Shown one piece after another: positions 1 to 38,006 of a DNA stretch of 38,006 bases. Within the stretch, counting starts at the first letter, position 1; each line of letters starts with the position of its first letter. The DNA comes from Bacteroidota bacterium. Its GTDB lineage: Bacteria; Bacteroidota; Bacteroidia; Chitinophagales; BACL12. The DNA lies in assembly GCA_029571985.1 (NCBI GenBank), contig JAKQVC010000201.1:1-38006 (forward strand). Reading direction: 5' to 3'. The notes below the pieces were generated by a model. That model was not told where the DNA came from and searched no databases. It worked only from the letters and a program-made list of their open reading frames with translations. Made by a program: the position numbers and the translations under genes.

Positions 1-258
1 TTCCCCTAAATAGAAGTTGCCACATAACCGTAATGGGATAGCTGCGACTATTGTTACATTCCCTCCTAAATTGCATATCGGTTTACCACATGATTCTTTA
101 GAAGTAGGTGTATTGCCCGATAATATTAATCTTTCAATAAACACTTTCTCATGGCAGTCTTTGAACCCAATCGCCGATAATAGTACAGCTTCCCCTTGCG
201 TCACTTGGAATGTAGCGGAGTGCTGATTAGGTTCATCTTTAGATATTAATTTAAACAC
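1..258 (-). CDS. Partial small structural-operon protein (3' end outside window)
   Basis: An open minus-strand frame runs from a GTG at 258-256 to the window edge with no stop, so the C-terminus is missing. It starts V/M-F-K-L-I-S-K-D-E-P. The GTG lies just after the double TAA that ends the upstream gene, with GGAAG about 8 nt before it as ribosome site. A segment with CGK..C..GGNVTIVAAIPLR resembles a segment of the next upstream gene (CGN..I..CNITI...PLR), so the two look like paralogous small virion proteins. No family recognised. The position downstream of portal and terminase fits a structural or head-tail role, which is inference only. Confidence 0.6.
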   Translation of the reverse strand, partial: MFKLISKDEPNQHSATFQVTQGEAVLLSAIGFKDCHEKVFIERLILSGNTPTSKESCGKPICNLGGNVTIVAAIPLRLCGNFYLGE

Positions 259-261
259 TTA

Positions 262-992: not shown

Positions 993-1008
993 TATTCGTA
1001 TCCTTAAA

Positions 1009-2772
1009 TTAATCTGTAATACTAGTGGGTATTCCCGCTACCCCTAACGCTTCACCCACTGCCCATTCCAATGTGCCTGCGGGTACTGCATTTGGTGCGG
1101 CTGAAATCATTTGACCTACCAATTGTAAATTTTCCATTGCTTTCATATTTTTAATTTCTTCTTTCAATAATCCTGAAAAGCCTAATGATTGAATTTGCGA
1201 ATCCCCGGTAATCCATCCTTCGTACAGTGCAATGTTATATATGTTCCTACCGATAGGCCCTAATATATCCATGTCGACATTGGACATAGCTGACTGAAAT
1301 CCTTTGATGGCGTTAGCATATAGCTGCATCACGCCCCGGAATGTCCGGTTAATGCCAGAGCCTACCGACTGGCCCGATAAGGTGGCAGGTACGCCTGTCA
1401 TTAAGTCACCCAGATGAATACACCAGTCCATCCACTGCATGTAGGATGTAACATTACTTGGCACGTTATGGTAATAATGCGCGGGTTTGCCTCCACCAAT
1501 CGTATCCGGGTCTACGGGTACAGTCATACCCACAAATAATTGACCAATTTGATCGGGGGATATATACCGTGCAATACGTTGATAATCTACCTCACCAATA
1601 GGTAATGCTGAGATCGCGCCGTTATTAACAAGATTTCGTAATCCGGCCATAAATAATCGTTCGATGGGTGCTAGAATAGTAGCTATGCTATCCCCTGCAA
1701 TTGATTCCTCGCCTAGATTATTCATATACGAAGTAGTATATATACCTCTAGGATTAGGATTATCTATTTTATTTATTTCAATTTTGATGGTTCTTCGGCC
1801 ACATATGATTATTTTAGTCTCATAAAATTCATTACGTGACACAGGTATATCATAACCTTTCAACATCTCGCCTTTTATTAAACCGTAAAATTTAATAATG
1901 TTGATAGTGGTACGTTCCGCTTCATGATTTAATATTTCACTACTACCTAACCAATCATAATTGATAGATTGAAAATTCTTTAAGCAGTATTTAATATTAG
2001 TATGCTGCCATCCTTCCGCTTTCTGCTGACGTGCTAACGTAATATAGTCAATAGTGTCAATAATAATATCAAACTGACCCGTACCATTACCTTTATTATC
2101 GGAACTATAGAAATGGTTTCTAGGGTTGATTGCTTTAAATTGCCATGATTTTTCAAGATTATATCTGGCTTTATTACCCTTCCATTTCATCTTTGGTGTC
2201 AAGAGTTGAATAGGGCCTTCAAATACGGTATAGGGGTATAGCACTAAATAACCTAACCCTTTAATTAATTCTTTAGTGATACCAGATTCAACCAATCTAT
2301 CTTTTAATACTAATGATGCGTTTTTAGCATCTTCCTTTGCCAGTTTTATTTTACTTTCGTTATACTGATTTTTTAATTGCCGGGCCAACACCGCTATACT
2401 ATCTGGAGTGTCAGGCATCCCTTGGTTATCCACCATACGTTGGCGAAGGGTTTGCCGCATTTGTGATGCTACAATGCCCAACTCCATGTCGTTTAAATCA
2501 GGTAGAGGTGTCGGTTCGAGCGTAAATGGGAAGGTATCCGCGTTCTGTAACATATCTCTAATAAACGCCATTACAGTATTAGTCTTGTGTTTAGTCAACG
2601 ATATGTACAGATCAACACCTGAGTCTTCTATTACCTGTTGATCACATGGCCGATGTTCTCCATTATATTGGCGAGCGCACGCTTCTATTTTTTCAGTAAC
2701 ACACCCTTTATGGGAACGCGCACTTTCTAATTGGCTGATTATATATTCAGCCAACACGTCATGGTCTGTCAT
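1009..2772 (-). CDS. Portal protein (putative)
   Basis: 587 residues. The portal is the dodecameric ring through which DNA is packaged and ejected; the call rests on size, position and fold-like sequence rather than one motif. The N-terminal third is charged and helical, followed by a segment on incoming substrate-like residues (PFTLEPTPLPDL, LGYLVLYPYTVFEGPI) typical of the clip/wing of portals. A C-terminal half follows with APIERLFMAGLRNLVNNG and LSGQSVGSGINRTFRGVMQL, like portal proteins of podophages. It lies two genes downstream of terminase large subunit, the usual order. Start ATG at 2772 has a GAGG ribosome site in the short leader. Alternative: another large head protein. Confidence 0.7.
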   Translation of the reverse strand: MTDHDVLAEYIISQLESARSHKGCVTEKIEACARQYNGEHRPCDQQVIEDSGVDLYISLTKHKTNTVMAFIRDMLQNADTFPFTLEPTPLPDLNDMELGIVASQMRQTLRQRMVDNQGMPDTPDSIAVLARQLKNQYNESKIKLAKEDAKNASLVLKDRLVESGITKELIKGLGYLVLYPYTVFEGPIQLLTPKMKWKGNKARYNLEKSWQFKAINPRNHFYSSDNKGNGTGQFDIIIDTIDYITLARQQKAEGWQHTNIKYCLKNFQSINYDWLGSSEILNHEAERTTINIIKFYGLIKGEMLKGYDIPVSRNEFYETKIIICGRRTIKIEINKIDNPNPRGIYTTSYMNNLGEESIAGDSIATILAPIERLFMAGLRNLVNNGAISALPIGEVDYQRIARYISPDQIGQLFVGMTVPVDPDTIGGGKPAHYYHNVPSNVTSYMQWMDWCIHLGDLMTGVPATLSGQSVGSGINRTFRGVMQLYANAIKGFQSAMSNVDMDILGPIGRNIYNIALYEGWITGDSQIQSLGFSGLLKEEIKNMKAMENLQLVGQMISAAPNAVPAGTLEWAVGEALGVAGIPTSITD

Positions 2773-2826
2773 TATTAATCCTCGGTATATCGGTATAGGT
2801 TACTAATCTAGTCTTGGACTAGCAAG

Positions 2827-3066
2827 TTATCCTGCGCTTAATGGTTTGTTGACAGTAGTCGCTAATCTCAACAGCGCCCCTGCCATCAATGTAGGATTAT
2901 CACCTGACCATCGGTAAGTGACAGTATCGACACAATCTACTAATACTACTGCTACGCCTCTAATATTGCGATCTTTCCTAATATCCTCAAGCCACTGTAT
3001 TAAATCATCATCTAAATGTTGTACGGTATATGTGTTACCGCTTATAGTTACAATATTGTCGCTCAT
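2827..3066 (-). CDS. Hypothetical protein between terminase and portal
   Basis: 79 residues. The ATG at 3066 overlaps the terminase large subunit stop (ATGA), so it is translationally coupled. The sequence is small, mixed alpha/beta and acidic in the middle (LDDDLIQWLEDIRKDR), with no cysteine motif or membrane segment. No family recognised; probably a small packaging or head accessory protein by position. Confidence 0.6.
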   Translation of the reverse strand: MSDNIVTISGNTYTVQHLDDDLIQWLEDIRKDRNIRGVAVVLVDCVDTVTYRWSGDNPTLMAGALLRLATTVNKPLSAG

Positions 3067-4586
3067 ATATTTTTTCTCTTTGTTAATTTCTGTATATCTA
3101 CATCGTTTTTATTTTGGTTATTTCTTGGCGACACAATAAATAAACATCCATATTGTAACCCGCAGCATACGTGCGTCCATTTATTCTCTTGATGCTTGGG
3201 AAGATAAATAACATTTGATTCATCAACATTTAATTCGTCACCTCCCCGTAACCGGGCATGGACATATTTCTCCAACAACCCTTCTTTCAATAATGGGCAA
3301 TTTTTTGCGTCAATAATTAGCCCATCATGATATGACGCCTGTTTAGCTACTGCGTTTTTGCGGACAGTGAACCCATTACTTGGCGCAGTAATAGCGGCAA
3401 TCCCATATTCTTTTAATAAATCAGTTGGGGTAACGGCGGTACGTTGATCACGAGCGTTTGCCGGGTCACAAATAGCGAGTGCGTTGGATTGGGGGTAACG
3501 TGTTACCAGTATAGGTTTAAGATAATCCTTAATAAATTCTTCAGTACCTACGGCGTCAGCGTATACTTCCATCAATACTCGCATTTGATTACGTAGTAGC
3601 TGAAACAATACCGCGCCGGGGTGAATCCCGGATGTATCAAAACCGATAAATATTGTTTCACCCGGTACATATTCTAGGGGGGTATCAGAAAAATGGTGCT
3701 CTCGTATTTCGGGATGGCATCGTTTGCCCCGTGTTGATGTACGCCATAGTAGGGCCAAACGTGAACACACGGTATCCCATGTACTGAATGTTAATTGTCG
3801 TAGATAATAATCGGGTTCAACATTCTCCAAGTTTTCAGCATTGGGGTTAAGTCGGTATTGGGGGGGTTCTTCCCCCGAATTGGCAGCTTCATAATTATCA
3901 ATAAATACGGCGGGAGGTTGCACGAAGAATTCCATCTTCATGGGTTTCACATCAAGCCCTGCGGTATCAATATCCCCCTCGGTTGCCAATTTCCCTTCTT
4001 TAATGGCTGTATATAACCAGTGACGTTTATCGGGATAGTTGAAATCCATGAGTAATACCGCCTCCGTACATTTCGCCCCGGTAATGCGAGAAGGGTAACG
4101 ATCTATACGTTCAATGGCGCGCATGACTACACTAATATCTATTTCATTGGCCTCATTAATGTAGATCAATGTGAACTCATTGGATGACAGATTTTCCAAG
4201 TCTTCTTTAGTATCTAACGCCATGAACTGCCAGTCTATTTCGCACCGTGTCCCATCAGACATTCCAAACTGTGTAAACCCCGTCATAGGTGCAGAATGTG
4301 TAAATGTGGATGTTCCCGGAATCATCCATGATTTAATGGTGACTAATGTTGTTGATCGCAGTCGTCGGAATGTTTTACGAATTACCCCCACCCGGATTCG
4401 ACGCACATTGTCGTACCCCGGCTCTTGGCGCATAGCCATGAATACAATATCCATAATAATACCTACTGATTTCCCCCCACCCGGCGGGCCAGCAACCGCT
4501 TTAATCGTAGCTATGGAATTATGAAATTTTGAAAGGGTCGGCTGAGGTGTATAACTGAATGTATAGGCCCGTACCATATCACTCAT
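3063..4586 (-). CDS. terL: Terminase large subunit
   Basis: 507 residues from the ATG at 4586, which has AGGAGG about 8 nt upstream and overlaps the small-subunit stop; an upstream TTG at 4613 lacks such a site. The motor powers DNA packaging and its C-terminal nuclease cuts concatemers. Visible motifs: Walker A GPPGGGKS (about 33-40); Walker B-like TLIYINEANE (about 139-148), with Asn where Asp is usual but the catalytic Glu present; an RNase H-like nuclease with IFIGFDTSG and ALAICDPAN acidic residues; and HDGLIID near the end. Length is usual for the family. Neighbours: putative small subunit upstream, portal downstream. Confidence 0.92.
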   Translation of the reverse strand: MSDMVRAYTFSYTPQPTLSKFHNSIATIKAVAGPPGGGKSVGIIMDIVFMAMRQEPGYDNVRRIRVGVIRKTFRRLRSTTLVTIKSWMIPGTSTFTHSAPMTGFTQFGMSDGTRCEIDWQFMALDTKEDLENLSSNEFTLIYINEANEIDISVVMRAIERIDRYPSRITGAKCTEAVLLMDFNYPDKRHWLYTAIKEGKLATEGDIDTAGLDVKPMKMEFFVQPPAVFIDNYEAANSGEEPPQYRLNPNAENLENVEPDYYLRQLTFSTWDTVCSRLALLWRTSTRGKRCHPEIREHHFSDTPLEYVPGETIFIGFDTSGIHPGAVLFQLLRNQMRVLMEVYADAVGTEEFIKDYLKPILVTRYPQSNALAICDPANARDQRTAVTPTDLLKEYGIAAITAPSNGFTVRKNAVAKQASYHDGLIIDAKNCPLLKEGLLEKYVHARLRGGDELNVDESNVIYLPKHQENKWTHVCCGLQYGCLFIVSPRNNQNKNDVDIQKLTKRKNI

Positions 4587-5181
4587 TAACGACCCCTCCT
4601 GTGCCGTGGTCAATTACTACCATGTTATTGGGTTCAATGCCCCTAACCCCCATCCCAATATTAACTTGCACAACTTGTTGTGAGGTGACACCCACCTGTT
4701 GCTGTTTCATAGCGGCGGTGGCAGCGGAGGAAATGGCTTTAAATATAGTAATCCTATCCCCGGTATCCACGTTGGGGTCATGGGCTAACGCAAACATAGA
4801 TGGCAGTAATGCTTCAGTAATGACAGTGGCTTTCCGGGCCAGTCCCGTGTGATCGCCAAACCCTTTTTGTTCAATCAGTGATTGGGCATCTTTTATATAA
4901 GTGGCAAATAAAGGCGATGATCTGATCATCTCGTTTACTTGATCTTCAGTGTACCCGTATTTGGCAGCAATGTTAGCGTGGGGTTCAATCCCGGCCACCC
5001 ACTCCATTGCTAATACGGATAGTTCAGCCGAGACGCCTTTATGATGTGATGGGTCGTTAGGGACTTTAGACGGGGGGGTAAATACTACATTGGGTAACGG
5101 TTCTGAATAACTACGTTTTACCTCCGCCGCATATTGTATCGGTGGTGGAGGGGGAATATGTTGCGCCATGATATTTTCCAT
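4579..5181 (-). CDS. terS: Terminase small subunit (putative)
   Basis: About 200 residues from ATG 5181 (MENIMAQ); other possible starts are TTG 5217 and ATG 5169, none with a strong ribosome site. After a Pro-rich N-terminus (HIPPPPPIQ) comes a helical part with an HTH-like stretch (IAAKYGYTEDQVNEMI) and a region rich in Ala and Gln, a layout common in small terminases that recognise the packaging site. It directly precedes and overlaps terminase large subunit. It also overlaps the end of the small membrane protein upstream by about 60 nt. Identification is by context and fold-like pattern. Confidence 0.6.
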   Translation of the reverse strand: MENIMAQHIPPPPPIQYAAEVKRSYSEPLPNVVFTPPSKVPNDPSHHKGVSAELSVLAMEWVAGIEPHANIAAKYGYTEDQVNEMIRSSPLFATYIKDAQSLIEQKGFGDHTGLARKATVITEALLPSMFALAHDPNVDTGDRITIFKAISSAATAAMKQQQVGVTSQQVVQVNIGMGVRGIEPNNMVVIDHGTGGVVNE

Positions 5182-7202: not shown

Positions 7203-7212
7203 AAATCACCTA

Positions 7213-7241
7213 TTGATTATTTATTATTTACAGTATATAAC
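7213..7241 (+). promoter_or_regulatory. Candidate sigma70-type promoter for the AT-hook gene
   Basis: TTGATT at 7213-7218 and TATAAC at 7236-7241 are separated by 17 nt, upstream of the ATG at 7283; AGGAG at 7271-7275 is the ribosome site. Confidence 0.5.
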
Positions 7242-9068: not shown

Positions 9069-9082
9069 ACCATTGCTGCAAT

Positions 9083-9490
9083 CTGGATTCGATTAACTAA
9101 AAACTGGATTCGATTAACTAAAAACTGGATTTTGTTTGTAAAAAATGGACGCAATTCAGCATGATGATGATAGATAAAGTATTGATTTATAAAAGATTAA
9201 TATTGTTAAATTGTATATAGAATCCAGTTTTTCAAAACTTCGTAAGCCGTTTTTTCCGTTTCAAGCGTATCCGTTTAAATTTTTATTAACGTCGCCACCT
9301 AATTTTAAGCCTTGCAGAGTGCTTACTACAGTTCAGGCTTTCTGGATTCTGATCATTGTTTAACGATATTATTTTGTTAAAAATCAACACTTTAGACCGT
9401 CACACCGCGTCGTTTTGCGTCCATTTTCAACAAATGAAATCCACATTTTCCTTAACAAAATCCACATTTTTCATAGTGAAATCCAGTTTA
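9083..9490. repeat. TGGATT boxes on both strands
   Basis: A 21-bp direct repeat beginning CTGGATTCGATTAAC occurs at 9083-9103 and 9104-9124, followed by a third CTGGATTT at 9125. The reverse AATCCAG appears at 9221 and near 9482, TCTGGATTC near 9350, and AATCCAC twice around 9437-9465. The first and fourth boxes with their A/T tails form an inverted pair. Possible binding sites of a regulator or initiator. Confidence 0.65.
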
Positions 9491-17288: not shown

Positions 17289-17617
17289 TTATCGTAGTGG
17301 CAAGTGTCATTTTCCAATTTGGAATAGGTTTTGTGTTAGGGTGGTGGGTTAAACCCGCTATTAAATTAGTATTATTGGTAGGAGGATGCGTACTGTTAAT
17401 TGCAGCACTCATACTATCAACGGGGTTAATGAAACCCAATTATTTCATACTAGATATGCAATGGGAAACTTTTAAAGTGGTACTGTTGGATAGTATCGAA
17501 GCTGTAATTATTTGGTCATTTAACAACGTGATCAATTTATTAGCTTATTTAGCTGGTATTTATGCTGGCAAAAAGTACGCAGCATCCGGTAAAACATTAC
17601 GGGTAACACTGAAATGA
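17285..17617 (+). CDS. Small membrane protein, FUN14-like (tentative)
   Basis: 110 residues from GTG 17285, which has TAGGAGT upstream and a GTGA overlap with the previous stop; the longer start at 17258 lies within the lysozyme-like gene. Pattern: FGIGFVLGWWVKPAIKLVLL, a second segment, an amphipathic stretch, and LAYLAGIYAGKKYA. The Gly-spaced segments with Lys after them resemble FUN14-domain proteins, but length is short. Probable part of the membrane module. Confidence 0.5.
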   Translation: MIIVVASVIFQFGIGFVLGWWVKPAIKLVLLVGGCVLLIAALILSTGLMKPNYFILDMQWETFKVVLLDSIEAVIIWSFNNVINLLAYLAGIYAGKKYAASGKTLRVTLK

Positions 17618-19581
17618 CTCGATGGGTATATGATATTGAAACCTACCCTAACGTGTTCATTGGTAATTTTATTAATGTTAATACTCGTGAGCGCGTAGGG
17701 TTCAAAACGTGCAGTAATAATATGAGCGACGACGAGATCATCGCTATAATTGACAAGATGATTAATTGGTACATGGCGCAAGAATTATTTATAGGTTTTA
17801 ATAATATAGGCTTCGACGCCATTGTAATTAGTCAGATGCGCACATGGCGGGCGACACCATTGTCCGGGTCACAATTGATTTCATCAGCTTCATCCTTCGG
17901 CCAAACTATCATTCGAGGTATGACCGATGAAGAACGCCGCACATTGATGTATCGCACGGATAGTCTGGTGCAGCAATGTGATCTGATGCGGGTACAACAT
18001 TATGATAACCCAAGTCGTAGGTGCTCGTTGAAGCAAATTAAATTCGCAATGCGCCGCACGAATTTACAGGATTTACCTATCCCACCTAACACGCATGTAC
18101 CCGTTAATATGCTAGATAAGTTAGATGATTATTGTTGGGATGACGTAGAGACTACGTTAGCATTATATGAAGCCATACAGAGCAATATACAGTTTCGTGA
18201 GACAATGACTAAAGAGTTAGGTGTCGATTTATGGTCGGCATCTAATACCAAAATAGGTGTTACCATTATCCGCAAGGAGGTTGAATCCGCGTTGGGGAAA
18301 GGCGCAATCCGTAAAGCAGATGGTCAACCTGTGCAAACCCCTGATCGTCCAATTAAATTAGGTGACATTATATTTCCGTATCTGTCTATGGAAACCGCAC
18401 CATTTCATGCGGTACAGGATTGGATGCGGGAACAGGTGATTACTACCCCTAAAAATGCATTTACGCTTATTAACCCGGAGCGAATGGTTAGCCACCCTAT
18501 TACTGAATTTACTGATGCTAAAAAAACAAAGGGATTATTGAAGAATTTAAACGTTAATAATTATGGGTTGAATTGGGTATTTGGGTCAGGTGGAATACAT
18601 GCATCTCGCAACAACATAACATACCGATCATCCGATACTATGACGATATTGGACATTGATGTTAGTTCGTTCTACCCCAATTTAGCAATCAATAATAATT
18701 TCTACCCTTCGCATTTATCATCATCATTTAATGACATTTATAAATCACTATATGAAAAGCGTAAACTGCACGCATCGGGAACTAATTTAAATTTAGCACT
18801 CAAAGAGGCATTGAATGCGGTATTCGGTAACTCAAATAATGCATTCTCATTTTTAAAAGATTCAAGTTATTTTTTTAAGACCACTATTAACGGGCAGTTT
18901 TCGTTAGCTAAATTGACAGAAATGGTAATGCAGAGTGTGGACTGTGAGATCATTCAGGGTAATACAGATGGTGTAACATTTTATATTAATCGAAAAAATG
19001 AAGACATTATTAGGGACGTAGCCAGCGAATGGGAGCGAATGACTAAATTGAAATTGGAATTTGCTGAATACGATTTAATGGCTATATCCGATGTTAATAA
19101 TTATATCGCTCGCACTGTGTCGGGCAAGGTGAAAGCTAAGGGTCGATACCAGACAAGCTATAATTCGTCGGAATATCATAAAAACCAAAGCGAATTAATT
19201 GTCGCAAAAGCTGCCTTAGCGTATATGGTTGACGATATACCCATCGAATATACGGTATACACGGCAGATAACATTTATGATTTTATGCGGTTTGTTAGAT
19301 TAAATAAAGATCAACGCTTGTTGACTGGTGACGGTATCGAGTTAGCCAAGCACCAACGCATTATTATTAGCACTGAGGGAGTGACCCTTAAAAAAGAGAT
19401 GCAACCTTTAAATAATAATGATTTAAGATATACATCAATCCCCGCCGGGTATACAATTATACCCTGTAACGATATGACCCAATGGGATGAAGGCGAATTA
19501 TTATTACGGGTCAATCGTCAGTATTATGCGCAAGCCGCGTCCAGCATTATTAATAAATTAGGTGTCGATCTATGCAAATAA
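17614..19581 (+). CDS. Family-B DNA polymerase with 3'-5' exonuclease
   Basis: 655 residues, ATGA-coupled. Exonuclease motifs: YDIET (D7, E9), GFNNIGFD (61-68), YCWDDVETT (173-181). Polymerase: GGIHA (about 326-330), motif A DVSSFYP (349-355), motif B LKEALNAVFGN with K397 and G405, motif C GNTDG (about 449-453). The usual DTD of motif C is NTD, but D452 (the metal ligand position) is retained, so activity is plausible. The protein is compact; a terminal-protein priming domain (TPR1/TPR2) is not identified. It is the replicative polymerase of this phage. Confidence 0.9.
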   Translation: MTRWVYDIETYPNVFIGNFINVNTRERVGFKTCSNNMSDDEIIAIIDKMINWYMAQELFIGFNNIGFDAIVISQMRTWRATPLSGSQLISSASSFGQTIIRGMTDEERRTLMYRTDSLVQQCDLMRVQHYDNPSRRCSLKQIKFAMRRTNLQDLPIPPNTHVPVNMLDKLDDYCWDDVETTLALYEAIQSNIQFRETMTKELGVDLWSASNTKIGVTIIRKEVESALGKGAIRKADGQPVQTPDRPIKLGDIIFPYLSMETAPFHAVQDWMREQVITTPKNAFTLINPERMVSHPITEFTDAKKTKGLLKNLNVNNYGLNWVFGSGGIHASRNNITYRSSDTMTILDIDVSSFYPNLAINNNFYPSHLSSSFNDIYKSLYEKRKLHASGTNLNLALKEALNAVFGNSNNAFSFLKDSSYFFKTTINGQFSLAKLTEMVMQSVDCEIIQGNTDGVTFYINRKNEDIIRDVASEWERMTKLKLEFAEYDLMAISDVNNYIARTVSGKVKAKGRYQTSYNSSEYHKNQSELIVAKAALAYMVDDIPIEYTVYTADNIYDFMRFVRLNKDQRLLTGDGIELAKHQRIIISTEGVTLKKEMQPLNNNDLRYTSIPAGYTIIPCNDMTQWDEGELLLRVNRQYYAQAASSIINKLGVDLCK

Positions 19582-19768: not shown

Positions 19769-20536
19769 ATGTGGGGAATAACTTTACCATCTACTTTAGA
19801 CATGTTGGGGCATAAAATGATACCTGCATCAGCATCCAGTATGAATAAAATGGGAATTTGCCCATCTCAGTTCGATGCGCAATATGTCGGTAGACATGTA
19901 CCTAAAATACCATTTGCGCCCAATGAGGCGACTGCCAAAGGGGAAAAATTCCATGCGATTATCGAAACGGCGGCTAAAAATAGAACCCATGTTACGGATA
20001 ATGATTTAACTTGTGAGATTATAAATTCTCATCTTGATCTATGTTACGCCATGCCTATGGTAATGATTGAAAAAGACTTTGGGTGGAATGACGAAACACA
20101 GTCCCGCGAATGGCGGGGTCGTAAACTAGGCGTGCGCGCCGATCTATTTGCCAAGAATGGTGAATTGGGTGTGTATATTGATTGGAAAACCGGGAAGGTT
20201 AAAACCCAAACATTGCAGGCAGAATTAACAGCTTATATTTTATTTCAAAACTACCCCGACCTTACTCAGATCACAAGTCGATTTATTTACGTCGAGCACT
20301 CTCAAATGGTGGATTACGTGTTCACTAGAGATACGCAATATGTTGAAAGCTTATTTGCGTTAGTGAATCAGGAATGGATGCAATACCCATCGGAAACGTT
20401 AACAATAAAATTAGATTTATTACTAGCAGAATATTGGGATCACCAAAAGGTAAAAGAATTTCCCGCAGTTAAGAATGGGTTATGCAAACAATGGTGTCAG
20501 GTGACAACCTGTAAACATCATGGGGGGCGTGAATAA
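19769..20536 (+). CDS. PD-(D/E)XK nuclease, Cas4/RecB-like
   Basis: 255 residues from ATG 19769, which has AAGGAG 8 nt upstream; the in-frame GTG at 19760 lies within the ribosome site. Motifs: CPSQF (C31), KGEKFHAIIE (H62), GVRADL (D125), IDWKTGK (D138, K140), QAELTAY (Q150, Y156), and C-terminal CKQWCQVTTC. One early plus three late cysteines match the iron-sulfur layout of Cas4/AddB-type enzymes. Such nucleases prepare ends for recombination or process replication intermediates. It sits between polymerase and helicase. Confidence 0.85.
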   Translation: MWGITLPSTLDMLGHKMIPASASSMNKMGICPSQFDAQYVGRHVPKIPFAPNEATAKGEKFHAIIETAAKNRTHVTDNDLTCEIINSHLDLCYAMPMVMIEKDFGWNDETQSREWRGRKLGVRADLFAKNGELGVYIDWKTGKVKTQTLQAELTAYILFQNYPDLTQITSRFIYVEHSQMVDYVFTRDTQYVESLFALVNQEWMQYPSETLTIKLDLLLAEYWDHQKVKEFPAVKNGLCKQWCQVTTCKHHGGRE

Positions 20537-22737: not shown

Positions 22738-23163
22738 ATGAATATTCCACCTCCACCTCCACCAATGGTAAGTGCCCCATCACTTGAAAAAATTAGTGAA
22801 CGGTTAAAAGTGGTGCAGGCTAATATTAAAGCTGCAAAGGCTATTCAAACGAAGTTTGAAGATGAGCAAGAATTATTACTTCTTACTGCTCGAATGCTAA
22901 TTCCATCTGATACCAAGATAACTAGATACCCATCAGGCTCATTTCAGCGTAGTGTTAAAGAATACTACGGCTGTAAAGATTGGGGAAAATACTTTACACA
23001 TTTAGGTGACAAGATAAAAAACGGAGAATCACCCATTACGGTGTTATCCGTGCTTGGCAAGAAATTACTTAACGAACCATTTAATAAATTAAATGATTCG
23101 GAATTACCCGACGGCGTATACCGCGCCACCATTAACACCGTTACATTTAAAGGAAGTAAATAA
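22738..23163 (+). CDS. Hypothetical replication-operon protein
   Basis: 141 residues from ATG 22738 (MNIPPPPPPMVSAPSLEK); a TTG at 22678 overlaps the helicase stop but no ribosome site favours it. Helical, charged N-terminal half (coiled-coil-like about 15-60), then a domain with RYPSGSFQRSVKEYYGCKDW. The final TAATG couples it to the Pro-rich gene. Could be a small recombination or single-strand-binding partner by position; not recognised. Confidence 0.6.
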   Translation: MNIPPPPPPMVSAPSLEKISERLKVVQANIKAAKAIQTKFEDEQELLLLTARMLIPSDTKITRYPSGSFQRSVKEYYGCKDWGKYFTHLGDKIKNGESPITVLSVLGKKLLNEPFNKLNDSELPDGVYRATINTVTFKGSK

Positions 23164-24533
23164 TGCAACCGTTCAATCCCCTTACCGTATTTAATAATAT
23201 TCCTACCGTATCGCCAGAATTGGCGCAAATGGTGGTTGCCCCAATTATTGGAAAAGCAATGCCGCGTACCCTGAAAATGGGTACAAACCAAGCGGGTCGA
23301 ACATTTGTCCTTGCCGATGGTGGCAACGCTAAACAGTTAGGGCGGTCTATCATAGACCTCGTTATCCTAAAGGTGTTAGCGGATGATACCGGGGAAATGC
23401 GAGTTTCCCGCAACTGGTGGGTAAAAGGGTATTCACCAGAAAACCCAACCGCCCCTGACTGTTTCAGCGCCGATGGTAAACATCCCCATAGTACAGCGCA
23501 AAATACCCCGGTGCTGGTCGACCGCGCGAACCCGGCCATCAGTCGCAAAGTGGCAGTCTGTTCAGAATGTCCGAACAATAATCCGGCGCAAGGTTCAGGT
23601 ATGTCTAAATGCGCAAAACGCCCCACAGTGATTGCAGTAACACCTGATCTATCACCCAATGGATTGGTGATGATCTCAGTATCCCCACAGTCCGCTTTTG
23701 GTGGTAAAAATGAACAACCCGTAAGCTTAGATAGCCCCATGTTGGCAATTGGGGCAGCATGGTCATTAGCGGGATACCTGCGGTTCATTTCCGGTAGTGG
23801 TCACAACCTTGCCATGTTTAATTCACGGTTATTTTTACTGAGCGATCAGACAACAGGTACACCGATGATTCGATTCGGATTTGGGTTTGAACCTCCCGCT
23901 GCTACTAATCAAGAAGCTGTAGTAAGATTACTGCAAAGCGATGAATATAAAGCGTTCGATGCGCAGGTGTTGGAATTTGTAAATGGTGCGATGATCGACG
24001 ATGAAACACCACCTACTGTTGCCACACCTGTTGCCACACCTATTGCCCCGGTAACGACCGCAGCGCCTCCGCCTGTTGCCCCGGTAACGACCGCAGCGCC
24101 TCCACCTGTTGCCCCGGTAACGACCGCAGCACCTCCACCTGTTGCCCCGGTAACGACCGCAGCACCTCCACCTGTGACACCTGCACCACCTGTTGCCCCG
24201 GTAACGACCGCAGCACCTCCACCTGTGACACCTGCACCACCTGTTACCCCGGTAACGACCGCAGCACCTCCACCTGTGACACCTGCACCACCTGTTACTC
24301 CGGTAACGACCGCAGTCCATGTTAAGGCTATTGACGCGATGATTAATAGTGCTCAATTTGGCGCAGATATTAATAACTGGCTAATTCAATTGAAGACATA
24401 TGATGCTAACGATGTTATTAATTTATTTGACGAATTGGATGGAAGTCACCAAATATTGAAAAATGCATTTAAAAATTATATGCAATCAGGTGACGACGAC
24501 ACTATGTTAAACAATCTCCGCAACTTGGCGTAA
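23163..24533 (+). CDS. Zinc-binding replication-type protein with Pro-rich repeat
   Basis: 456 residues. The N-terminal 280 residues carry features of a phage family with WWVKGYSPENPTAPDCFS, CSECPNNNPAQGSGMSKCAKRP (four to five Cys, zinc-like) and conserved C-F-S-x-D-G; this family lies next to primases and polymerases and is often suspected of binding DNA. Residues about 284-388 are low-complexity Pro/Ala/Thr/Val with repeated PVTTAAPPPV. The last 75 residues are helical and acidic. A tether plus acidic tail is a layout seen in single-strand DNA-binding proteins, which supports, but does not prove, that role. Confidence 0.6.
   Translation: MQPFNPLTVFNNIPTVSPELAQMVVAPIIGKAMPRTLKMGTNQAGRTFVLADGGNAKQLGRSIIDLVILKVLADDTGEMRVSRNWWVKGYSPENPTAPDCFSADGKHPHSTAQNTPVLVDRANPAISRKVAVCSECPNNNPAQGSGMSKCAKRPTVIAVTPDLSPNGLVMISVSPQSAFGGKNEQPVSLDSPMLAIGAAWSLAGYLRFISGSGHNLAMFNSRLFLLSDQTTGTPMIRFGFGFEPPAATNQEAVVRLLQSDEYKAFDAQVLEFVNGAMIDDETPPTVATPVATPIAPVTTAAPPPVAPVTTAAPPPVAPVTTAAPPPVAPVTTAAPPPVTPAPPVAPVTTAAPPPVTPAPPVTPVTTAAPPPVTPAPPVTPVTTAVHVKAIDAMINSAQFGADINNWLIQLKTYDANDVINLFDELDGSHQILKNAFKNYMQSGDDDTMLNNLRNLA
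24041..24315 (+). repeat. In-frame tandem repeat coding for VTTAAPPPV
   Basis: A 33-bp unit (CCCCGGTAACGACCGCAGC plus CTCC(A/G)CCTGTTG) is repeated about four times, then a longer unit with an inserted CCTGTGACACCTGCACC-type segment about three times. Copy number changes would keep the frame because units are multiples of three. Confidence 0.85.
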
Positions 24534-24841: not shown

Positions 24842-27800
24842 ATGCATGATCTATTTTCTCAAATATTACCACCTACTGGTAATATTATATTGGTGCATGA
24901 GTCTGATTTCAAAAAAGCAGACGGCACTACAGCTCTGAATAATATTATATTTGAGAGTAGAGATGCATTACTAACCAATCCTCCTTTAGATAAAATGGGT
25001 TCATCATTATGGTATGATACAAGCTCATATATTAAAAATACAGTTAATAAATATACTGGTCGAACTACTATTAATGTGTCGGAAGTTAAAGCACTATGGT
25101 TAGATTTAGATATTAAAGATACAGGATTTACCACTCGACAATCTGCAATTGCAGCCATTGTTGAATTATGCAATAAGTTGTCCTTACCAAGACCGTGGGT
25201 AGTAAATTCCGGGTACGGGTATCATGTCTACTGGCCCTTACAGGTTGCAGTAAATAAAGAAGACTGGAAACAGGTAGCTAGTAAATTTGCAACCATTATA
25301 GGTCATTTACAAATACCTGTTGATTTTAAAGTCATTTATAAAGTTGCACAGTTAATGCGTGTACCCGGCTCATTTAATACAAAACGAGGACTCAGTGTCC
25401 CCGTCACTATTGACGTTGAGGGTTCTAGTGATTTATTAACATTAGATGATTACCGATTGAAATTCGACAATTTCATTAACGTCAATAATATAACAGCGGT
25501 CACTAACGTACCGCCTATAAAATCCACACCTTCACCGTTAGGATTTTTAGACCATATCCCTATTAATTCAGGCATTGATTTACCCGCAATGCCTGTATCA
25601 GTATCCGAACCTAAATCGGCTACGTCCATTATTGATCAATGCGCACAGATACGTAATGCACCATTCGCAAGTGAACCCACATGGCGAGCAATGTTGACCG
25701 TTATACGCTTATGTGAAAATGGGGATGGGGAATGTCATGCATTATCCAAAGCAGATGCCGCGCGATATGATCATACGGCGACTCAACAGAAATTAGATTA
25801 CATGCGGCATACACACCCGGCTGATGGGATGCCTTCAACATGTTATGAATTCGACAAGTTGAACCCTAATATCTGTCAGAATTGCCAACACTTCAACCGG
25901 ATTAAGTCACCTATTATATTGGGTAAAAAAAAATTAAATGAGCTAGTTTTACCTACCGTACCTGACCCCGCACCCCCTGAATCTATTACGATTAATGATT
26001 GGGTTGTACCTAATGGGGTACATGAGTTGGGTATTGGTGAATATCATTTTGCAAACCATCAGTATTTTGTGAGTAACGAGGGTACATTTGTTGTGACCAC
26101 GAAAGATGGTGACAATGGTATACCTGTACGCATTAATACATTATTGACCCAGCTATGCATATTTCCAATTGTCACTATTGACGGTAGAGATGAGGGGGGT
26201 CAACCGCAGATCAGCCATGTATGGCGATGTATTTTACCTGACAAGACATTTAAAGATGCCATTATTCCGGCCAGTAAAATGATGTCAGATTCGGGCTTAT
26301 TGGCGTTATTTGGTAATTATTTCGGATTAGTAATCCCCAATAGAGGTCTATGGGAAGCAATGAGTGGTTATCTACGATCAGTATTGGCTGCGGCCATCAC
26401 TAATAAATCATTACCTGTACATAGCGTGCAAACCCATATGGGGTGGAACGACACAGATTATTTTGTATTAGGTAATGAGATGTATGAACCGGGTACGGGT
26501 AATATTATTGCCCCTCAACTATCTAACGGATTAAAGAAATTCGCACAGGATATGTTTAACACGGTAGGTACAATTGAAGGTTGGCGCGAGTGTGCGAATG
26601 CGTTTAATCGGGACGATATGATGTGGGCGCAACTCATCATAGGCGCAGGATTTGGCGCACCTTTAGCTAAATATACGGAGGCGCGCGGATTTATTTACTC
26701 AGTGTTTGGTGAATCCGGCGCGGGTAAAACAACCGTGCAGAAAGTCGCAAATGCGATATGGGGTCATCCCTCTAAGCTGATTATTAAATCACCCGGTACA
26801 TCACATGGCGATACATCGAGAGCGGCGGATTATTTACTTGGTCAATTACATAGCTTACCTGTAAATTTAGATGAGTTAACATTGGTTGAACCTTCCAAAT
26901 TAGTAGCATGGGTTTATTCATGCTCACAGGGTAGAGATAAAACGAGATTGGGACAAGGTGTAGACTCACGCGAATTTACCGCGTCTACCCCGCATGAGTG
27001 GCATACCATTTTCTGTTCATCCTCTAATGCGTCGTTAAAGGATAAAATCGCTGAAGGTACAAGTAGCACAGATGTACTACAGGCATTGAACCAGCGGGTA
27101 TTCGAGATCGGGCCTGTATCATCACCTAATGATTTTAATGTATCCATTAATTTGGATGACGGTATGCGCCGCAATTACGGTGTAGTGGGGAAGGAATATA
27201 TCCGAACATTGCAAGCAAACCCTGCATTAGTGAAAAATGTATTTGACATGATCAGTGATAGATTGCGTACCAAATTGCGACCCATTCAAGCTGAGCGCTT
27301 TATCATATCTGGCCTAACTAGTATATTTACGGGGCTATATATAGCCCAACAATTAGGTTACATTGATTACGATTTAACTAAAATTGAAGATTACATTACC
27401 GCCCAATTTGCAGATCAGCGGGATATAATCATTGAATCTAAAGAATTACATAGCGCAATATTTAATGACATGCTGTCCCACCTTGTCCCACAAACTATTA
27501 TTATCAACACTCGGCGGTTTGATGGTGGTGGCGAGTCCATTAGCGTGGCTAAGTCCCCCCGGTTTGACCAATTATTGGCGCGGGTAAATACGACTGATGG
27601 CACAATATTAATCTCTAGTTCAGCGGTTAAGGATTATGCTAAATTGCGAGGTGTGAGCTATAGGGATATATTGCGGATTGCAGCATCGGAAAACTACTGT
27701 GATCGTAATCCACAATCCGTTAGACGACTTATTGGTGCAAGTATCCCTGAGTTCCAGCACGTTGGTAGGGTGAGTACATACGAATTTAAACTACCAGAAG

Positions 27801-27847
27801 TAGTCATTAAACAACTAATATCAAAGGTGGAAAAAACAGATGCGTAG
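24842..27847 (+). CDS. AEP primase fused to DUF927-type helicase
   Basis: 1001 residues. N-terminal archaeo-eukaryotic primase: motif I WLDLD (D88, D90), motif II NSGYGYHVYW (S123 to H128), motif III DFKVIYKVAQLMRVPGS. A Cys cluster CQNCQHF (about 330-350) follows. The C-terminal half is a DUF927/superfamily-3-like helicase: Walker A FGESGAGKT (623-630), LPVNLDEL (D677, E678) and a sensor-like IFCSSSNASLKDK. The fusion combines primer synthesis and unwinding, as in phage and plasmid replicons. It overlaps the methyltransferase gene by 8 nt. Confidence 0.88.
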   Translation: MHDLFSQILPPTGNIILVHESDFKKADGTTALNNIIFESRDALLTNPPLDKMGSSLWYDTSSYIKNTVNKYTGRTTINVSEVKALWLDLDIKDTGFTTRQSAIAAIVELCNKLSLPRPWVVNSGYGYHVYWPLQVAVNKEDWKQVASKFATIIGHLQIPVDFKVIYKVAQLMRVPGSFNTKRGLSVPVTIDVEGSSDLLTLDDYRLKFDNFINVNNITAVTNVPPIKSTPSPLGFLDHIPINSGIDLPAMPVSVSEPKSATSIIDQCAQIRNAPFASEPTWRAMLTVIRLCENGDGECHALSKADAARYDHTATQQKLDYMRHTHPADGMPSTCYEFDKLNPNICQNCQHFNRIKSPIILGKKKLNELVLPTVPDPAPPESITINDWVVPNGVHELGIGEYHFANHQYFVSNEGTFVVTTKDGDNGIPVRINTLLTQLCIFPIVTIDGRDEGGQPQISHVWRCILPDKTFKDAIIPASKMMSDSGLLALFGNYFGLVIPNRGLWEAMSGYLRSVLAAAITNKSLPVHSVQTHMGWNDTDYFVLGNEMYEPGTGNIIAPQLSNGLKKFAQDMFNTVGTIEGWRECANAFNRDDMMWAQLIIGAGFGAPLAKYTEARGFIYSVFGESGAGKTTVQKVANAIWGHPSKLIIKSPGTSHGDTSRAADYLLGQLHSLPVNLDELTLVEPSKLVAWVYSCSQGRDKTRLGQGVDSREFTASTPHEWHTIFCSSSNASLKDKIAEGTSSTDVLQALNQRVFEIGPVSSPNDFNVSINLDDGMRRNYGVVGKEYIRTLQANPALVKNVFDMISDRLRTKLRPIQAERFIISGLTSIFTGLYIAQQLGYIDYDLTKIEDYITAQFADQRDIIIESKELHSAIFNDMLSHLVPQTIIINTRRFDGGGESISVAKSPRFDQLLARVNTTDGTILISSSAVKDYAKLRGVSYRDILRIAASENYCDRNPQSVRRLIGASIPEFQHVGRVSTYEFKLPEVVIKQLISKVEKTDA

Positions 27848-29021
27848 ATTAATTATAGTTTTAGAAAGTGGGGAACATAAGCCAACTGCTGCTAAGTTTG
27901 CCAAGATTGAAGCACTTAAAGATGAAACTCCATTCAAGCTGCCACCTAATGCTATTAGCCAATTCAAATTCATTGATTTGTTTGCAGGTATAGGTGGTAT
28001 CCGACTACCTTTTCAAGAGTTGCAAGGGAAGTGTGTTTTTACCTCCGAATGGAATAAGTTTTCTAAAATTACCTATGCAGCTAACTTTGGTGAGTTACCT
28101 CATGGCGATATTACTAAAATTCCAGCTACTGAGATTCCAGACCATGATGTTCTGCTAGCAGGTTTTCCTTGCCAAGCCTTTTCTCAAGCGGGTCTAAAAC
28201 AAGGTTTCAATGATACTCGTGGAACCATGTTCTTCGAGATTCAACGCATTTTAGCGGAGAAGCGTCCCAAAGCTTTTTTATTAGAAAATGTGAAGCATCT
28301 GCAAGGTGATAATAAAGGCAAAACCTTAAAAACTATTTTAGGGATTCTTAGGGGTGAATTTAAGGAAGACATTCCAGAAGATGTGCCTATGAGTGAAGAA
28401 GCACGTAGGGCGCTAGGGAAGACTTTAAATTATTGGGTAGATTACCGTGTTCTAAGAGCCGCTGATTTTGGTATACCTCAAAATAGAGAGCGCATCTATA
28501 TTGTTGGTTTTGACAAAGATTACTTTAGTAGCCAATGCAATTTTAATGACTTATTTCAGTGGCCTGCACCCTCGAATGTACTAACTAAAGTAGGGAGTAT
28601 TTTAGAAGATTTAAGCTCTTTGCCTCCAAGTGAAGATAAGTTCACAATTTCAGATAAGTTATGGAGTGGACACTTGCGACGTAAAGCAGAGCATCAAACT
28701 AAAGGTAATGGCTTTGGCTACTGCTTATTTAATGAAAATAGCCCTTATACCAATACGCTTAGTGCCCGTTACTATAAAGATGGTTCCGAAATTCTAATTG
28801 ATCAATCTGCGTTAGGACTTAATCCCCGCCTACTTACACCGAGAGAGTGTGCACGTTTGCAAGGTTTTCCAGAGAACTTCGTAGTTGATGCTGTTTCAAA
28901 AGCACGCATTTATGAACAGTTTGGTAATTCAGTTTGTGTGCCTGTTGTAAGGGCTGTTGCACAGTCTTTAGTAAAAGCGATGCAACAGGCTGAACAGTTG
29001 AAGCAGGTTAAAGCTGCTTAA
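27840..29021 (+). CDS. DNA cytosine-5 methyltransferase, Dcm/EcoRII family
   Basis: 393 residues. Motif I IDLFAGIGG (45-53), motif IV GFPCQ with catalytic C111, motif VI ENV (149-151), motif VIII QNRERIY (214-220), motif X QFGNSV near 362. The target-region words KGNGFGY and TLSARYYKDGSEILID match the Dcm/EcoRII/SsoII group (CCWGG, CCNGG or CCGG). About 40 residues extend before motif I. Base and codon use looks different from the flanking genes (more GCT/GGT/CCA-type codons, few CCCC/GGGG runs), suggesting recent transfer. No restriction partner is seen. Confidence 0.92.
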   Translation: MRRLIIVLESGEHKPTAAKFAKIEALKDETPFKLPPNAISQFKFIDLFAGIGGIRLPFQELQGKCVFTSEWNKFSKITYAANFGELPHGDITKIPATEIPDHDVLLAGFPCQAFSQAGLKQGFNDTRGTMFFEIQRILAEKRPKAFLLENVKHLQGDNKGKTLKTILGILRGEFKEDIPEDVPMSEEARRALGKTLNYWVDYRVLRAADFGIPQNRERIYIVGFDKDYFSSQCNFNDLFQWPAPSNVLTKVGSILEDLSSLPPSEDKFTISDKLWSGHLRRKAEHQTKGNGFGYCLFNENSPYTNTLSARYYKDGSEILIDQSALGLNPRLLTPRECARLQGFPENFVVDAVSKARIYEQFGNSVCVPVVRAVAQSLVKAMQQAEQLKQVKAA

Positions 29022-29408: not shown

Positions 29409-29772
29409 CTATGAGGACTGTCTAATTTTGATAATGTAGGTGGCATCTACTGGTGAGCAATACCCAAACGGGAGGAGAGGGTTCAGTAGATACCAAGTGC
29501 CATTATTGCATGGTCTAACAACATAGTCAAAATGAATCCCCTGTAGCACGATCACTCCCGGTTCGACATGGGCCACTTCTTCGCCCACGTACCCTACCTG
29601 TTGAAGTGCGGTCAAAATATCCGGTTTGTACCAGAACCTATTTTCATCGTCGATGGTGTACCGCTGTTTTAACCACAGCCTTACCGCACCCTAGTAATGT
29701 GCGTTGTGCGTGGAAGTACGCAGGGGTGGAACAGGCTGACAGTAGTAAACTGAGTAGGACAATACGAATCAT
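29409..29772 (-). CDS. Lipoprotein, apparently frameshifted
   Basis: ATG 29772 overlaps the upstream stop (ATGA). The first frame gives MIRIVLLSLLLSACSTPAYF, a classical lipoprotein signal with lipobox LSAC (Cys 13), and stops at 29644. A second open frame runs to TAA 29409 and contains YTIDDENRFWYKPDILT and LPFGYCSPVDATYIIK. Removing one A from the AAAA run near 29663 joins them into about 119 residues. This may be an indel, sequencing error or slippage. A short lipoprotein by the lysis genes could be a spanin (Rz1-like) or an exclusion lipoprotein. Confidence 0.6.
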
Positions 29773-32713: not shown

Positions 32714-32715
32714 TA

Positions 32716-34320: not shown

Positions 34321-37300
34321 TGTAATAATCCTTAATAGCTTTGCGCATAATATCTAATTTTACAGTTTCAAATGTCGCAAACTCATTTTTATGCTGCATT
34401 AATATTGATTCATCATCTATGTAGGTTAATGGTATATCACCCTCCACCTCACGCTCCGCATTCTGTGCAGTTAATAACTCATTGTATAATGTTCTACTAG
34501 GTCTACCTGCGCGGTTGCGAATATCCTTTAGGGCCTGCTCGATAATGAGGCGTTGTTGTTTCAAGGTTGCCTCATCATCCGGTACATCATATTCCTTGGT
34601 AGTCGGATTGTATGGGTACTCGATTAATTCTTTATTGAGCACATTTACCGCTCGATAAAATAAACCCGGTTCGGGGCGTGAGTACGTACCCATCATTCGA
34701 GATAGACCTATGGTATCCCATAACCCTAATTCTTCTTTAAACGTTGTATTATCGACTTTACTGCCGCCATCGGTATTAGCAAAATGTGATACTAACCCGC
34801 TAAGTGGGCCAACCGCGTAGCCCATAGTAATAGCTTTCACATACTCAGGGGACATATCTATACCGAATACTTTATGGATATTGGCACTTAATTCCTTCCA
34901 TGACTCATCGGTATTTGTCCATCCCTGTGCATACGCGGGTTTACTACTGTCAGTGGCATAACCAATTTGCGCGCCCAATTGTGTGACATTCATTGCACCT
35001 AAAATAAGAGGTGATGCTAGCGATGGTGCAAATGTTGATACGATGAATTTGGTGGGTTCTTCTGTCCAATCAAAATTGGACTGACCCAATGGCCCTAATT
35101 CCTTACGTGCAACATCTGCAATTAATCCTGATAAACTAAACGAGTCGCCATACAAGGCATTTTGTTTACGTACCGCACCCACTGCTGACGCCCACATTAA
35201 CCGGGGCAATCCATATGACATGGGTAATTTAATATATCCACCTAATGGGGTGGGTATTACAATATTTGACGTAGCGGTTAAGATATTAATATTATCTAAT
35301 TTGTTACCTAATTCCGGGTCATCCTCGTCACCGGATAACATGGATAGCATGGCGTACAGCGCAGACATGGCAGTGATACCGCCCACTAGAAAGGCCGCCC
35401 CTTCTTTCGTACTGAATATTCCGCGTGATGTGCGAAGCATATTGGCCGCGCCATAGGCGGATGACCCCACAAAGGGGTACGCGGTACGCATCCATTTTGT
35501 CCATGTGCCCCGTGCATGGAAATTCATCATATCCTTAGTGACAAATGCGGCCTCACGTTTAGATAATCCCATATCCGTTAATGCTTTATATGTCGCTAAT
35601 GATACCCGGTAATCCCACATGCTATTCCATGCGCCAAACACTTCGCGTACTGTTAACCAATATTCCCGTGCGGTGTCGGTAGCTTCTTGCAGACTTACAC
35701 CGTCCCGGTTGCGAATGAGTGCAATTAATTCCTGCATTGCTTCTTCTGGTGATGATTTACCTAGAAATTGTAATAATATTTTATCGTCATCAGGACGTTT
35801 ACCGAACCGGGACTGTCGACCATCTGACCCCTTCATGGTGTAGTTAGTGGCTAATGAGTCGGCGAACACGTTAACCCCTCCTAGCATTTCCAGTTCTTCA
35901 AAGATTTTAACCCATTTATTATTGCGAATAGTAGGGTCTGGTTTATTTAAAAACCGCTCTTTAACTAGTCCAGCTATATCGACAAACATTTCAATATCTG
36001 TCGTATTTTTCATTATGTTTTTAGCAACTTCCGCTGGGGATAATTTATCATACCCCCCGTTAGGGTTGGCAGCTTTTAACCCTCGAAACGCTACATTTAA
36101 TGGTCGCTCGATACTGTCTCTAAGCCAGTTGATGGGCGCGAATGCCAGTACATAATAGGTCAGCAATGATGAATATTTACGAGTCATTAGTCCCAATAAA
36201 TTAACAGCGGCGGAATCTACTTCTTCTTTTACTCCAAGTATCCCCCGCATGGCGAATGAGTATTTTTCGTCAAACCACAACATGTACGTGTCACCTGTTG
36301 GTGACTTGACCCGCAAAATTAAACTAGGGTCTACATTGGCGGGTATGGAGGCGAACGGCCCTAATCGCAGCACATTCAGTCCCGGTAGCGAATGGGCCAG
36401 CGCTTTCTTAAGTAACGCTAATTTAAATGGTTGCACCCCTTTAGCGGTAGCCATTCGACCCGCTGCTCTAAATAAATTAGTAACCGCATCGCTGGGTTGC
36501 GATAGACGACCTTTCCGAGCATAACCCATATTAATTCTAAAATTTTCAGGGGCAAATGAATCCATTACCGCTTCATCACCCATTTCAGTATCAATATCCT
36601 CCCCCGGCTTACCCGCTAATGACACGTAATCATTTGGTGCGTTCCGATAGAATTTATTCCACTCATCTACTTCATCTTGAGTGTATAACCCTGCGGCAAT
36701 CCCTTCCTCTTTTAATTGTGCATATGCTGCTACAATTACTGATTGGAATTGTTTTAAATCCGCAACATCAAAATCTTTCTCTAATAACCTCATTGCCCGT
36801 TCAGCCATCGGAACAGTTGCGCCCCCTTGCAATCGGTACTTTCTAGCATCACCCCCTTCAATTACCCCTGAGCTTTGTGACGTACTAATATCGGACAGTT
36901 CACGATTAAGCTTAGTAATCATTTCATCTAAAATATCATTGACGGTTTTCTTACCTTGTGAATTTTGCAATGCTTTTTCAATATAATTTCTGTATTCAAA
37001 TTTTAATTTCAAAATACCTTGTGCTTGCTGGGTTGCGTTCATGGCGCGTAGTGCACGTAATGTTAATACATCTACTTGTAAATTAGTAATTACAGCTTTA
37101 GTTGACGTAATAATATGTGCAAAGGTTGGGTAATTACTAAATGCCATTAGTATTTCATCTTGCGAAAACTTACCTTCATATTTTTTATAATAGGTGTATA
37201 GTAATTCCTTAACAGGTTGAACAAGAGTCCGTTTATAGTTTTCAAATTCAGCGTTACTTTTCCCCCCTGCTAACGTCAGCTCATGCCATAGCGGTGATGA

Positions 37301-38006
37301 GTCATACGAGTTATCCAGATCAACGTCACCTACTCTAATTAAATAGTCTAAAAAATCTGTCTTATAATCCACGAACCGTTTACGTAATGCTAGGATAGAT
37401 CGTAGTGAATTAAAACTATTGGCTTTATTCTTAAAGGGTAAACCTGAATCAAATTTTAAACCATGCGTGTACCGCATCCACCATGAATGCCATCTATCCG
37501 TAGCATTGCCGCTAACTACATCGTCTTGTGAGTGAACCACTGGACTAAGCGTGTTAATATCCATGTCCATTAACCTAGCATTTTCTGTAAACATTAGGTT
37601 AATTAAGTCAATTGCGTTATCGGTAGTATATTGTGAGGGGATGTTAAATGCCTTTAGAATAATATCTCTAAATTTATCAAAATTGCTTTTTTCAAATTGC
37701 TGACCCGCTTCATTGAACGCATCTCTAAATATACTATTCGTGTACATTTCGGCGGTAAATTCTGCAAGGTTTGTTAAACCATACCAGTCGTTAGCAGTGA
37801 CAGGTTTAGTCGCCCCATCAATTTTCAATTTTGGAATATTACGCCTTGCAAAATCATATAATCTTATTAATTCCTCACGCGCAGCTCTCGATCTCGGCGT
37901 TTGAGTAGGTCGATATATTAATTGTACAGTGGCAGCGTGTAGGGCCTCATGCACTATAGTATGCGGTGTTAAATGCTTAGGTGATATAACAATTGTATTT
38001 GTTCTA
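34307..38006 (-). CDS. Giant polyvalent internal virion protein, 5' end outside window
   Basis: At least 1232 residues; the frame stays open from GTG 37954 to the window edge (reading ...RTNTIVISPKHLTPHTIV), so the start is missing. A zincin motif VHEALHAAT (HExxH) sits at the visible N-terminus. The C-terminal third holds FHARGTWTKWMRTAYPFVGS and neighbours that match the LPD38 domain of large polyvalent proteins, which are packed in virions and injected with the DNA. Long helical spacers lie between. The usual role is modifying or protecting incoming DNA or the cell envelope. Confidence 0.75.
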   Translation of the reverse strand, partial: RTNTIVISPKHLTPHTIVHEALHAATVQLIYRPTQTPRSRAAREELIRLYDFARRNIPKLKIDGATKPVTANDWYGLTNLAEFTAEMYTNSIFRDAFNEAGQQFEKSNFDKFRDIILKAFNIPSQYTTDNAIDLINLMFTENARLMDMDINTLSPVVHSQDDVVSGNATDRWHSWWMRYTHGLKFDSGLPFKNKANSFNSLRSILALRKRFVDYKTDFLDYLIRVGDVDLDNSYDSSPLWHELTLAGGKSNAEFENYKRTLVQPVKELLYTYYKKYEGKFSQDEILMAFSNYPTFAHIITSTKAVITNLQVDVLTLRALRAMNATQQAQGILKLKFEYRNYIEKALQNSQGKKTVNDILDEMITKLNRELSDISTSQSSGVIEGGDARKYRLQGGATVPMAERAMRLLEKDFDVADLKQFQSVIVAAYAQLKEEGIAAGLYTQDEVDEWNKFYRNAPNDYVSLAGKPGEDIDTEMGDEAVMDSFAPENFRINMGYARKGRLSQPSDAVTNLFRAAGRMATAKGVQPFKLALLKKALAHSLPGLNVLRLGPFASIPANVDPSLILRVKSPTGDTYMLWFDEKYSFAMRGILGVKEEVDSAAVNLLGLMTRKYSSLLTYYVLAFAPINWLRDSIERPLNVAFRGLKAANPNGGYDKLSPAEVAKNIMKNTTDIEMFVDIAGLVKERFLNKPDPTIRNNKWVKIFEELEMLGGVNVFADSLATNYTMKGSDGRQSRFGKRPDDDKILLQFLGKSSPEEAMQELIALIRNRDGVSLQEATDTAREYWLTVREVFGAWNSMWDYRVSLATYKALTDMGLSKREAAFVTKDMMNFHARGTWTKWMRTAYPFVGSSAYGAANMLRTSRGIFSTKEGAAFLVGGITAMSALYAMLSMLSGDEDDPELGNKLDNINILTATSNIVIPTPLGGYIKLPMSYGLPRLMWASAVGAVRKQNALYGDSFSLSGLIADVARKELGPLGQSNFDWTEEPTKFIVSTFAPSLASPLILGAMNVTQLGAQIGYATDSSKPAYAQGWTNTDESWKELSANIHKVFGIDMSPEYVKAITMGYAVGPLSGLVSHFANTDGGSKVDNTTFKEELGLWDTIGLSRMMGTYSRPEPGLFYRAVNVLNKELIEYPYNPTTKEYDVPDDEATLKQQRLIIEQALKDIRNRAGRPSRTLYNELLTAQNAEREVEGDIPLTYIDDESILMQHKNEFATFETVKLDIMRKAIKDYYNAAN

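Follow-up and report, generated by a model that had tools for sequence, protein, structure and literature searches.

Contents of the Contig

The window, by which we mean the whole stretch of DNA analyzed here, is an entire contig of 38,006 bp (C194) from a 4.0-Mb assembly of 282 contigs. Its predicted genes (table 1) suggest a near-complete tailed phage; in addition to those tabulated, they include genes for an SNF2-type helicase and for FtsK-like, endolysin-like, and LPD38 proteins. No exact terminal repeat was found in the window, and no integrase was recognized among the larger phage proteins scanned with PHROG and Pfam profiles, a scan that covered part of the ORFs. Known phages contain only distant relatives of the contig proteins. 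Searches of IMG/VR with the polymerase, primase, terminase, portal, and helicase recovered one distant polymerase (31%) and nothing more, and this relative lies on a 21.8-kb stretch of 30% GC that says little on site loss. A search of 59 related genomes did not turn up the phage terminase.

Two inverted copies of approximately 131 bp (9080–9210 and 9359–9489), which are 71% alike and contain internal CTGGATT-like repeats, lie in a gene-poor region where both gene direction and GC skew switch; it is possibly a replication or control region. The protein encoded at 23163–24533 contains an in-frame run of near-identical PPPVAPVTTAA-type repeats. On the reverse strand, a 42-residue ORF (29644–29772) has a lipoprotein-like start (MIRIVLLSLLLSACS) and, judged by eye, may encode an Rz1-like spanin, in keeping with a Gram-negative host.

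Table 1. Positions of the Genes and Sites Discussed, Numbered from the First Nucleotide of the Window.
Feature	Coordinates	Strand	Evidence
Whole phage contig: CCWGG/GGWCC-free, nearly GGNNCC/GGATC/RCCGGY-free, 92 CCSGG	1..38006		word counts
Portal / head-tail connector protein	1009..2772	-	phrog_332 7.9e-11
Terminase large subunit	3063..4613	-	phrog_2 1.5e-13; distant phage terminases
Phage DNA polymerase	17614..19581	+	phrog_1252 7.6e-142
Single GGATC site	20437..20441	+	sequence scan
Primase/helicase with DUF927	24842..27847	+	PF06048 1.2e-21; phrog_25314, phrog_8841
Orphan C5-cytosine DNA methyltransferase, 393 aa, predicted CCNGG	27840..29021	+	PF00145 6e-93; TIGR00675
GGAACC, 1 of only 2 GGNNCC sites in window, within methyltransferase gene	28221..28226	+	sequence scan
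Target-recognition signature GNGF-x13-TL-x3-YYK, residues 289-313	28704..28778	+	alignment, signature match
GGTTCC, other GGNNCC site, within methyltransferase gene	28782..28787	+	sequence scan

Restriction Sites Missing from the Phage

Neither CCAGG nor CCTGG occurs on either strand of the window, for an exact CCWGG count of 0. Dinucleotide-preserving shuffles of the whole window give an expectation of 46.6 ± 7.0, base composition one of approximately 41, and a maximal-order Markov model one of 30.5, the latter two being two-strand values that were halved. Shuffling synonymous codons 200 times over the 33 kb of coding DNA gives 30.9 ± 4.4 sites, with a minimum of 18. The absence of CCWGG is real and no chance effect. 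The first-pass annotation of this DNA had reported no CCWGG where a few tens of sites were to be expected, and the exact counts (0 vs. about 31–47) bear this out. Its further remark that CCGG and CCCGG-type sequences are common also agrees with our counts: CCGG is present at a normal level (115 sites), and CCSGG occurs 92 times against 55 expected. Within coding sequence, the CCSGG excess amounts to 84 sites versus 33.5 in synonymous shuffles.

Directly before glycine, proline is encoded by CCC or CCG in 22 of 22 cases (P = 1.9e-10), whereas elsewhere 36% of proline codons are CCS and 64% are CCA or CCT. Likewise, none of the serine, proline, threonine, and alanine codons preceding tryptophan ends in CC. 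This codon choice shows selection, with synonymous codons picked so as to avoid sites. Because CCSGG is in excess and Pro–Gly pairs are all encoded with CCC or CCG, these data suggest that escape from CCWGG proceeded at least partly by change to CCSGG.

The loss extends to many other words. We took a Type II site to be eliminated when the observed/expected ratio was <0.1 with at least 15 sites expected, using expectation models that differ from the compositional-bias formula of PMC6286503, and this threshold is passed by CCWGG, GGWCC (0/47), GGNNCC (2/103), GGATC (1/55), and RCCGGY (1/29). The depletion also stands under synonymous shuffles. The window lacks 26 of 64 palindromic hexamers, which together account for 169 expected sites, whereas synonymous-codon shuffles lack a mean of 0.95 and at most 5; GATATC and ATCGAT are among the depleted hexamers. 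When synonymous shuffles served as the null model, a greedy decomposition resolved seven separate strongly significant patterns (GGNNCC, GGATC, CCWGG, RCCGGY, GAYRTC, CWGCWG, and GGWCC); a further three (CYCGRG, ATCGAT, and ACTGGG) were borderline. With the other words masked, GAYRTC (1/25.5) and CWGCWG (3/29.1) remain strongly depleted; we know of no restriction enzyme that matches either.

Palindromic hexamers are low in total (549 vs. 766 expected), but some are kept at or above expectation, including TGATCA (30 vs. 11), GCGCGC (11 vs. 4.5), GTCGAC, and TGCGCA; AATATT is kept too, and GATC is retained fully (114 vs. 109). All four palindromic extensions of CCGG are gone, although CCGG itself is at its normal level. 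The site loss is word-specific, since other palindromes are retained, and the purge exceeds by far what composition and coding constraint produce.

An Orphan Methyltransferase with a Predicted CCNGG Target

The methyltransferase gene begins within the end of the primase gene directly upstream. Its product matches PF00145 with 312 bits and contains both the FPCQ and the ENV motifs. The target-recognition domain (TRD), GNGFGYCLFNENSPYTNTLSARYYK, is an exact fit to G(K/N)GFx13T(I/L)x3YYK, the signature of CCNGG methyltransferases (PMC3346939); the authors of that study predicted the LlaMI family to be CCNGG-specific. The closest relatives are plasmid enzymes (65–67% identity), among them those of the LlaMI/ScrFI-type systems of Psychrobacter pP62BP1 and Acinetobacter pTR3_5. 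M.SpyI of phage phi1207.3, which is reported to methylate CCAGG, CCTGG, CCCGG, and CCGGG (PMC10082018), is 57% identical, so that identity within this set spans 57–67% over the alignment, and the C5 motifs and the TRD signature are common to all of them and the phage enzyme. The three plasmid relatives whose gene neighborhoods we read each have an endonuclease gene as a neighbor, of the LlaMI family in two cases and of the LlaJI family in one. The phage gene differs in having no recognized adjacent endonuclease, with the primase gene upstream and, downstream to 29770, short ORFs of which none looks by eye like a full-length endonuclease. It also lacks the N-terminal HTH_XRE region that its relatives have; the phage protein begins after that region. 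Based on the TRD signature and the LlaMI-family neighbors of the relatives, we predict CCNGG specificity for the phage methyltransferase. A scan of a genome collection with this protein found relatives in Morganella, Clostridia, and Psychrobacter, among other taxa, and did not reveal the phage host.

The enzyme had been labeled Dcm-family at first pass, a label that fits its superfamily but neither its TRD signature nor its subfamily score. It shares the C5 superfamily TIGR00675 with Dcm, the enterobacterial CCWGG methyltransferase, and its closest solved structure is Shigella Dcm. However, the TRD spacing is x13 in the phage enzyme and x15 in Dcm (of the Dcm/EcoRII group, the comparison covered Dcm), and the enzyme scores 255 bits against NF007772, the Dcm subfamily, for which the cut-off is 710. 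The idea that the enzyme forms a second line of defense against a CCWGG enzyme is likewise not supported, as no CCWGG remains to be protected. For the same reason, the 92 CCSGG sites would be the only self-targets of an enzyme with the predicted CCNGG specificity.

Probable Order of Events

The methyltransferase gene, 3.1% of the window, holds both of the GGNNCC sites (chance ~0.001), and each of them could be removed by synonymous change; when all nine residual exceptions to the near-purged words are pooled, P is 0.03. It speaks against a late gain that the gene contains fewer purged sites (two) than the synonymous expectation of 7.2, although its relatives, too, vary between one and nine. 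Seven other large genes contain no purged site, with 9–29 expected in each. Because both GGNNCC exceptions lie inside this gene and the seven large genes have none, the methyltransferase gene was probably gained after the purge, a later arrival that rests on two sites. The first-pass view of a recent methyltransferase is thereby supported by an unexpected route, the confinement of GGNNCC to its gene.

The Bin and the Host

The MAG to which the contig was assigned, in which no 16S gene was recognized, is a member of the Bacteroidota, as judged from its T9SS type A and B sorting domains. We counted words in a sample of 335 kb of the MAG in 18 stretches. CCWGG is not depleted in this sample (491 vs. 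418 expected); ACCGGT, absent from the phage, is at 4.3 times its expectation; and GGWCC and GATC are mildly low. Purged sites number 9.3 per kb in the MAG and 0.08 per kb in the phage. As a separate feature of the MAG stretches (L005–L022), TCCGGA and CCGG are overrepresented 3.5-fold and 2.4-fold.

Profile searches of the MAG beyond the window gave C5 methyltransferase matches on two contigs, PF01555 matches in one region, one PF02384 match, and no match to PF02086, a methyltransferase set that, as judged from these profiles, appears too small to account for the purge. On a 5.5-kb MAG contig (L027, G000:C123), another C5 methyltransferase gene adjoins a radical-SAM-like ORF. Searches for CRISPR spacers in the MAG that match the phage gave no spacer-like match, only matches of ~23–31 bp with E values of 0.1–0.4.

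The use of Shine–Dalgarno sequences also separates the contig from its bin. With a single ORF rule applied to all genomes, and with hand-picked gene starts in agreement, the phage genes show strong Shine–Dalgarno sites (mean −5.3 kcal/mol, 70% at or below −4), resembling T7, CP-T1, and Pmp11. Use is not strong in the MAG genes (mean −1.0 kcal/mol, 13%) or in two Bacteroidota phages (means 0.3 and −1.4, with 14% and 21%). Given that the MAG is not depleted in CCWGG, encodes few DNA methyltransferases, and contrasts with the phage in Shine–Dalgarno use, the simplest reading is that the contig was probably mis-binned and that the MAG is probably not its host. On the same grounds, drawn from the sampled stretches and the profile searches, we reject the reading in which the MAG is the host and carries a large arsenal of restriction systems. 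The true host would be a Shine–Dalgarno-using bacterium. Host assignments of phage contigs in metagenome bins can be checked in two independent ways, by missing words and by Shine–Dalgarno use.

Explanations for the Purge

Taken together, the data make it likely that this is a tailed phage purged of many Type II sites by long selection from the restriction enzymes of its hosts. The purged words would be CCWGG, GGWCC, GGNNCC, GGATC, RCCGGY, and about twenty palindromic hexamers, and DNA free of these sites would escape cutting upon entry. The agents would be restriction enzymes of several hosts or of many systems; the strong depletion of GAYRTC and CWGCWG, for which we know of no enzyme, speaks against this. 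The first-pass annotation had proposed long pressure from a CCWGG enzyme; the restriction pressure stands, given the codon avoidance and the many Type II words involved, but a single enzyme is too narrow, because many other words were lost equally. That narrower history, in which one EcoRII-type host enzyme removed CCWGG and a Dcm-type phage methyltransferase secondarily protects the same site, would account for the complete absence of CCWGG and for the superfamily and nearest structure of the methyltransferase. We consider it unlikely, as the target signature and the subfamily score both point away from Dcm and zero CCWGG sites are left to protect.

An inherited bias, either of composition or as a general dislike of palindromes taken over from the host of the bin, would require no restriction enzyme. 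The low total of palindromic hexamers, which other phages of our panel share, and the mildly low GGWCC and GATC of the MAG are in keeping with it, but the phage has neither the CCWGG nor the ACCGGT level of the MAG, keeps several palindromes fully (TGATCA, GTCGAC, GCGCGC, TGCGCA, and AATATT), and has lost every palindromic extension of a normally abundant CCGG. Synonymous shuffles also fail to reproduce the pattern, and an inherited bias is accordingly quite improbable. Mutational loss is a further alternative: the phage does encode a C5 methyltransferase from a suitable family, and deamination of 5mC would turn CCWGG into CTWGG or CCWAG. We reject this explanation as hardly tenable, because CTAGG (22 vs. 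45.7 expected) and CTTGG (42 vs. 41.3) show no excess of products and CCSGG, likewise a predicted target, is itself in excess. Deamination moreover leaves the loss of GGWCC, GGNNCC, GGATC, and hexamers such as GATATC and ATCGAT unexplained, and the methyltransferase gene appears younger than the purge.

Under selection by host restriction enzymes, CCWGG would have been turned at least partly into CCSGG, and the later-gained CCNGG-type methyltransferase would probably shield CCSGG from CCNGG or CCSGG enzymes. We tentatively raise the possibility of a two-layer strategy, in which the escape from CCWGG to CCSGG exposed the phage to CCNGG or CCSGG enzymes and was followed by capture of a CCNGG methyltransferase that, having shed its endonuclease and autoregulatory domain, might then shield the very words that the escape had multiplied. 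With so complete a purge, an exception can serve as a marker of recently acquired DNA. In this phage it points to a late gain of the methyltransferase, and the acquisition of genes by other purged phages could be dated in the same way.

Comparison with T7 and Other Phages

The anti-restriction strategy itself is already known, and this phage is an extreme new example to which a methyltransferase has been added. Non-temperate phages generally eliminate Type II sites under restriction (Rusinov et al. 2018, PMC6286503). The window resembles T7 in the near-total loss of many such sites. T7 lacks 19 palindromic hexamers with 153 expected sites where the window lacks 26 with 169, and CCWGG stands at 2/70 in T7 and 0/47 in the window. 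In breadth, the purge of the window equals or exceeds that of T7, and the T7-type record is extended to one phage genome from which at least seven separate, strongly significant words are nearly absent. The other phages of our small panel have lost fewer expected sites. T7 keeps GGWCC (54/66) and GGNNCC (99/112), unlike the window, which is without both or nearly so; the window, for its part, differs from T7 in fully retaining GATC and in adding a methyltransferase.
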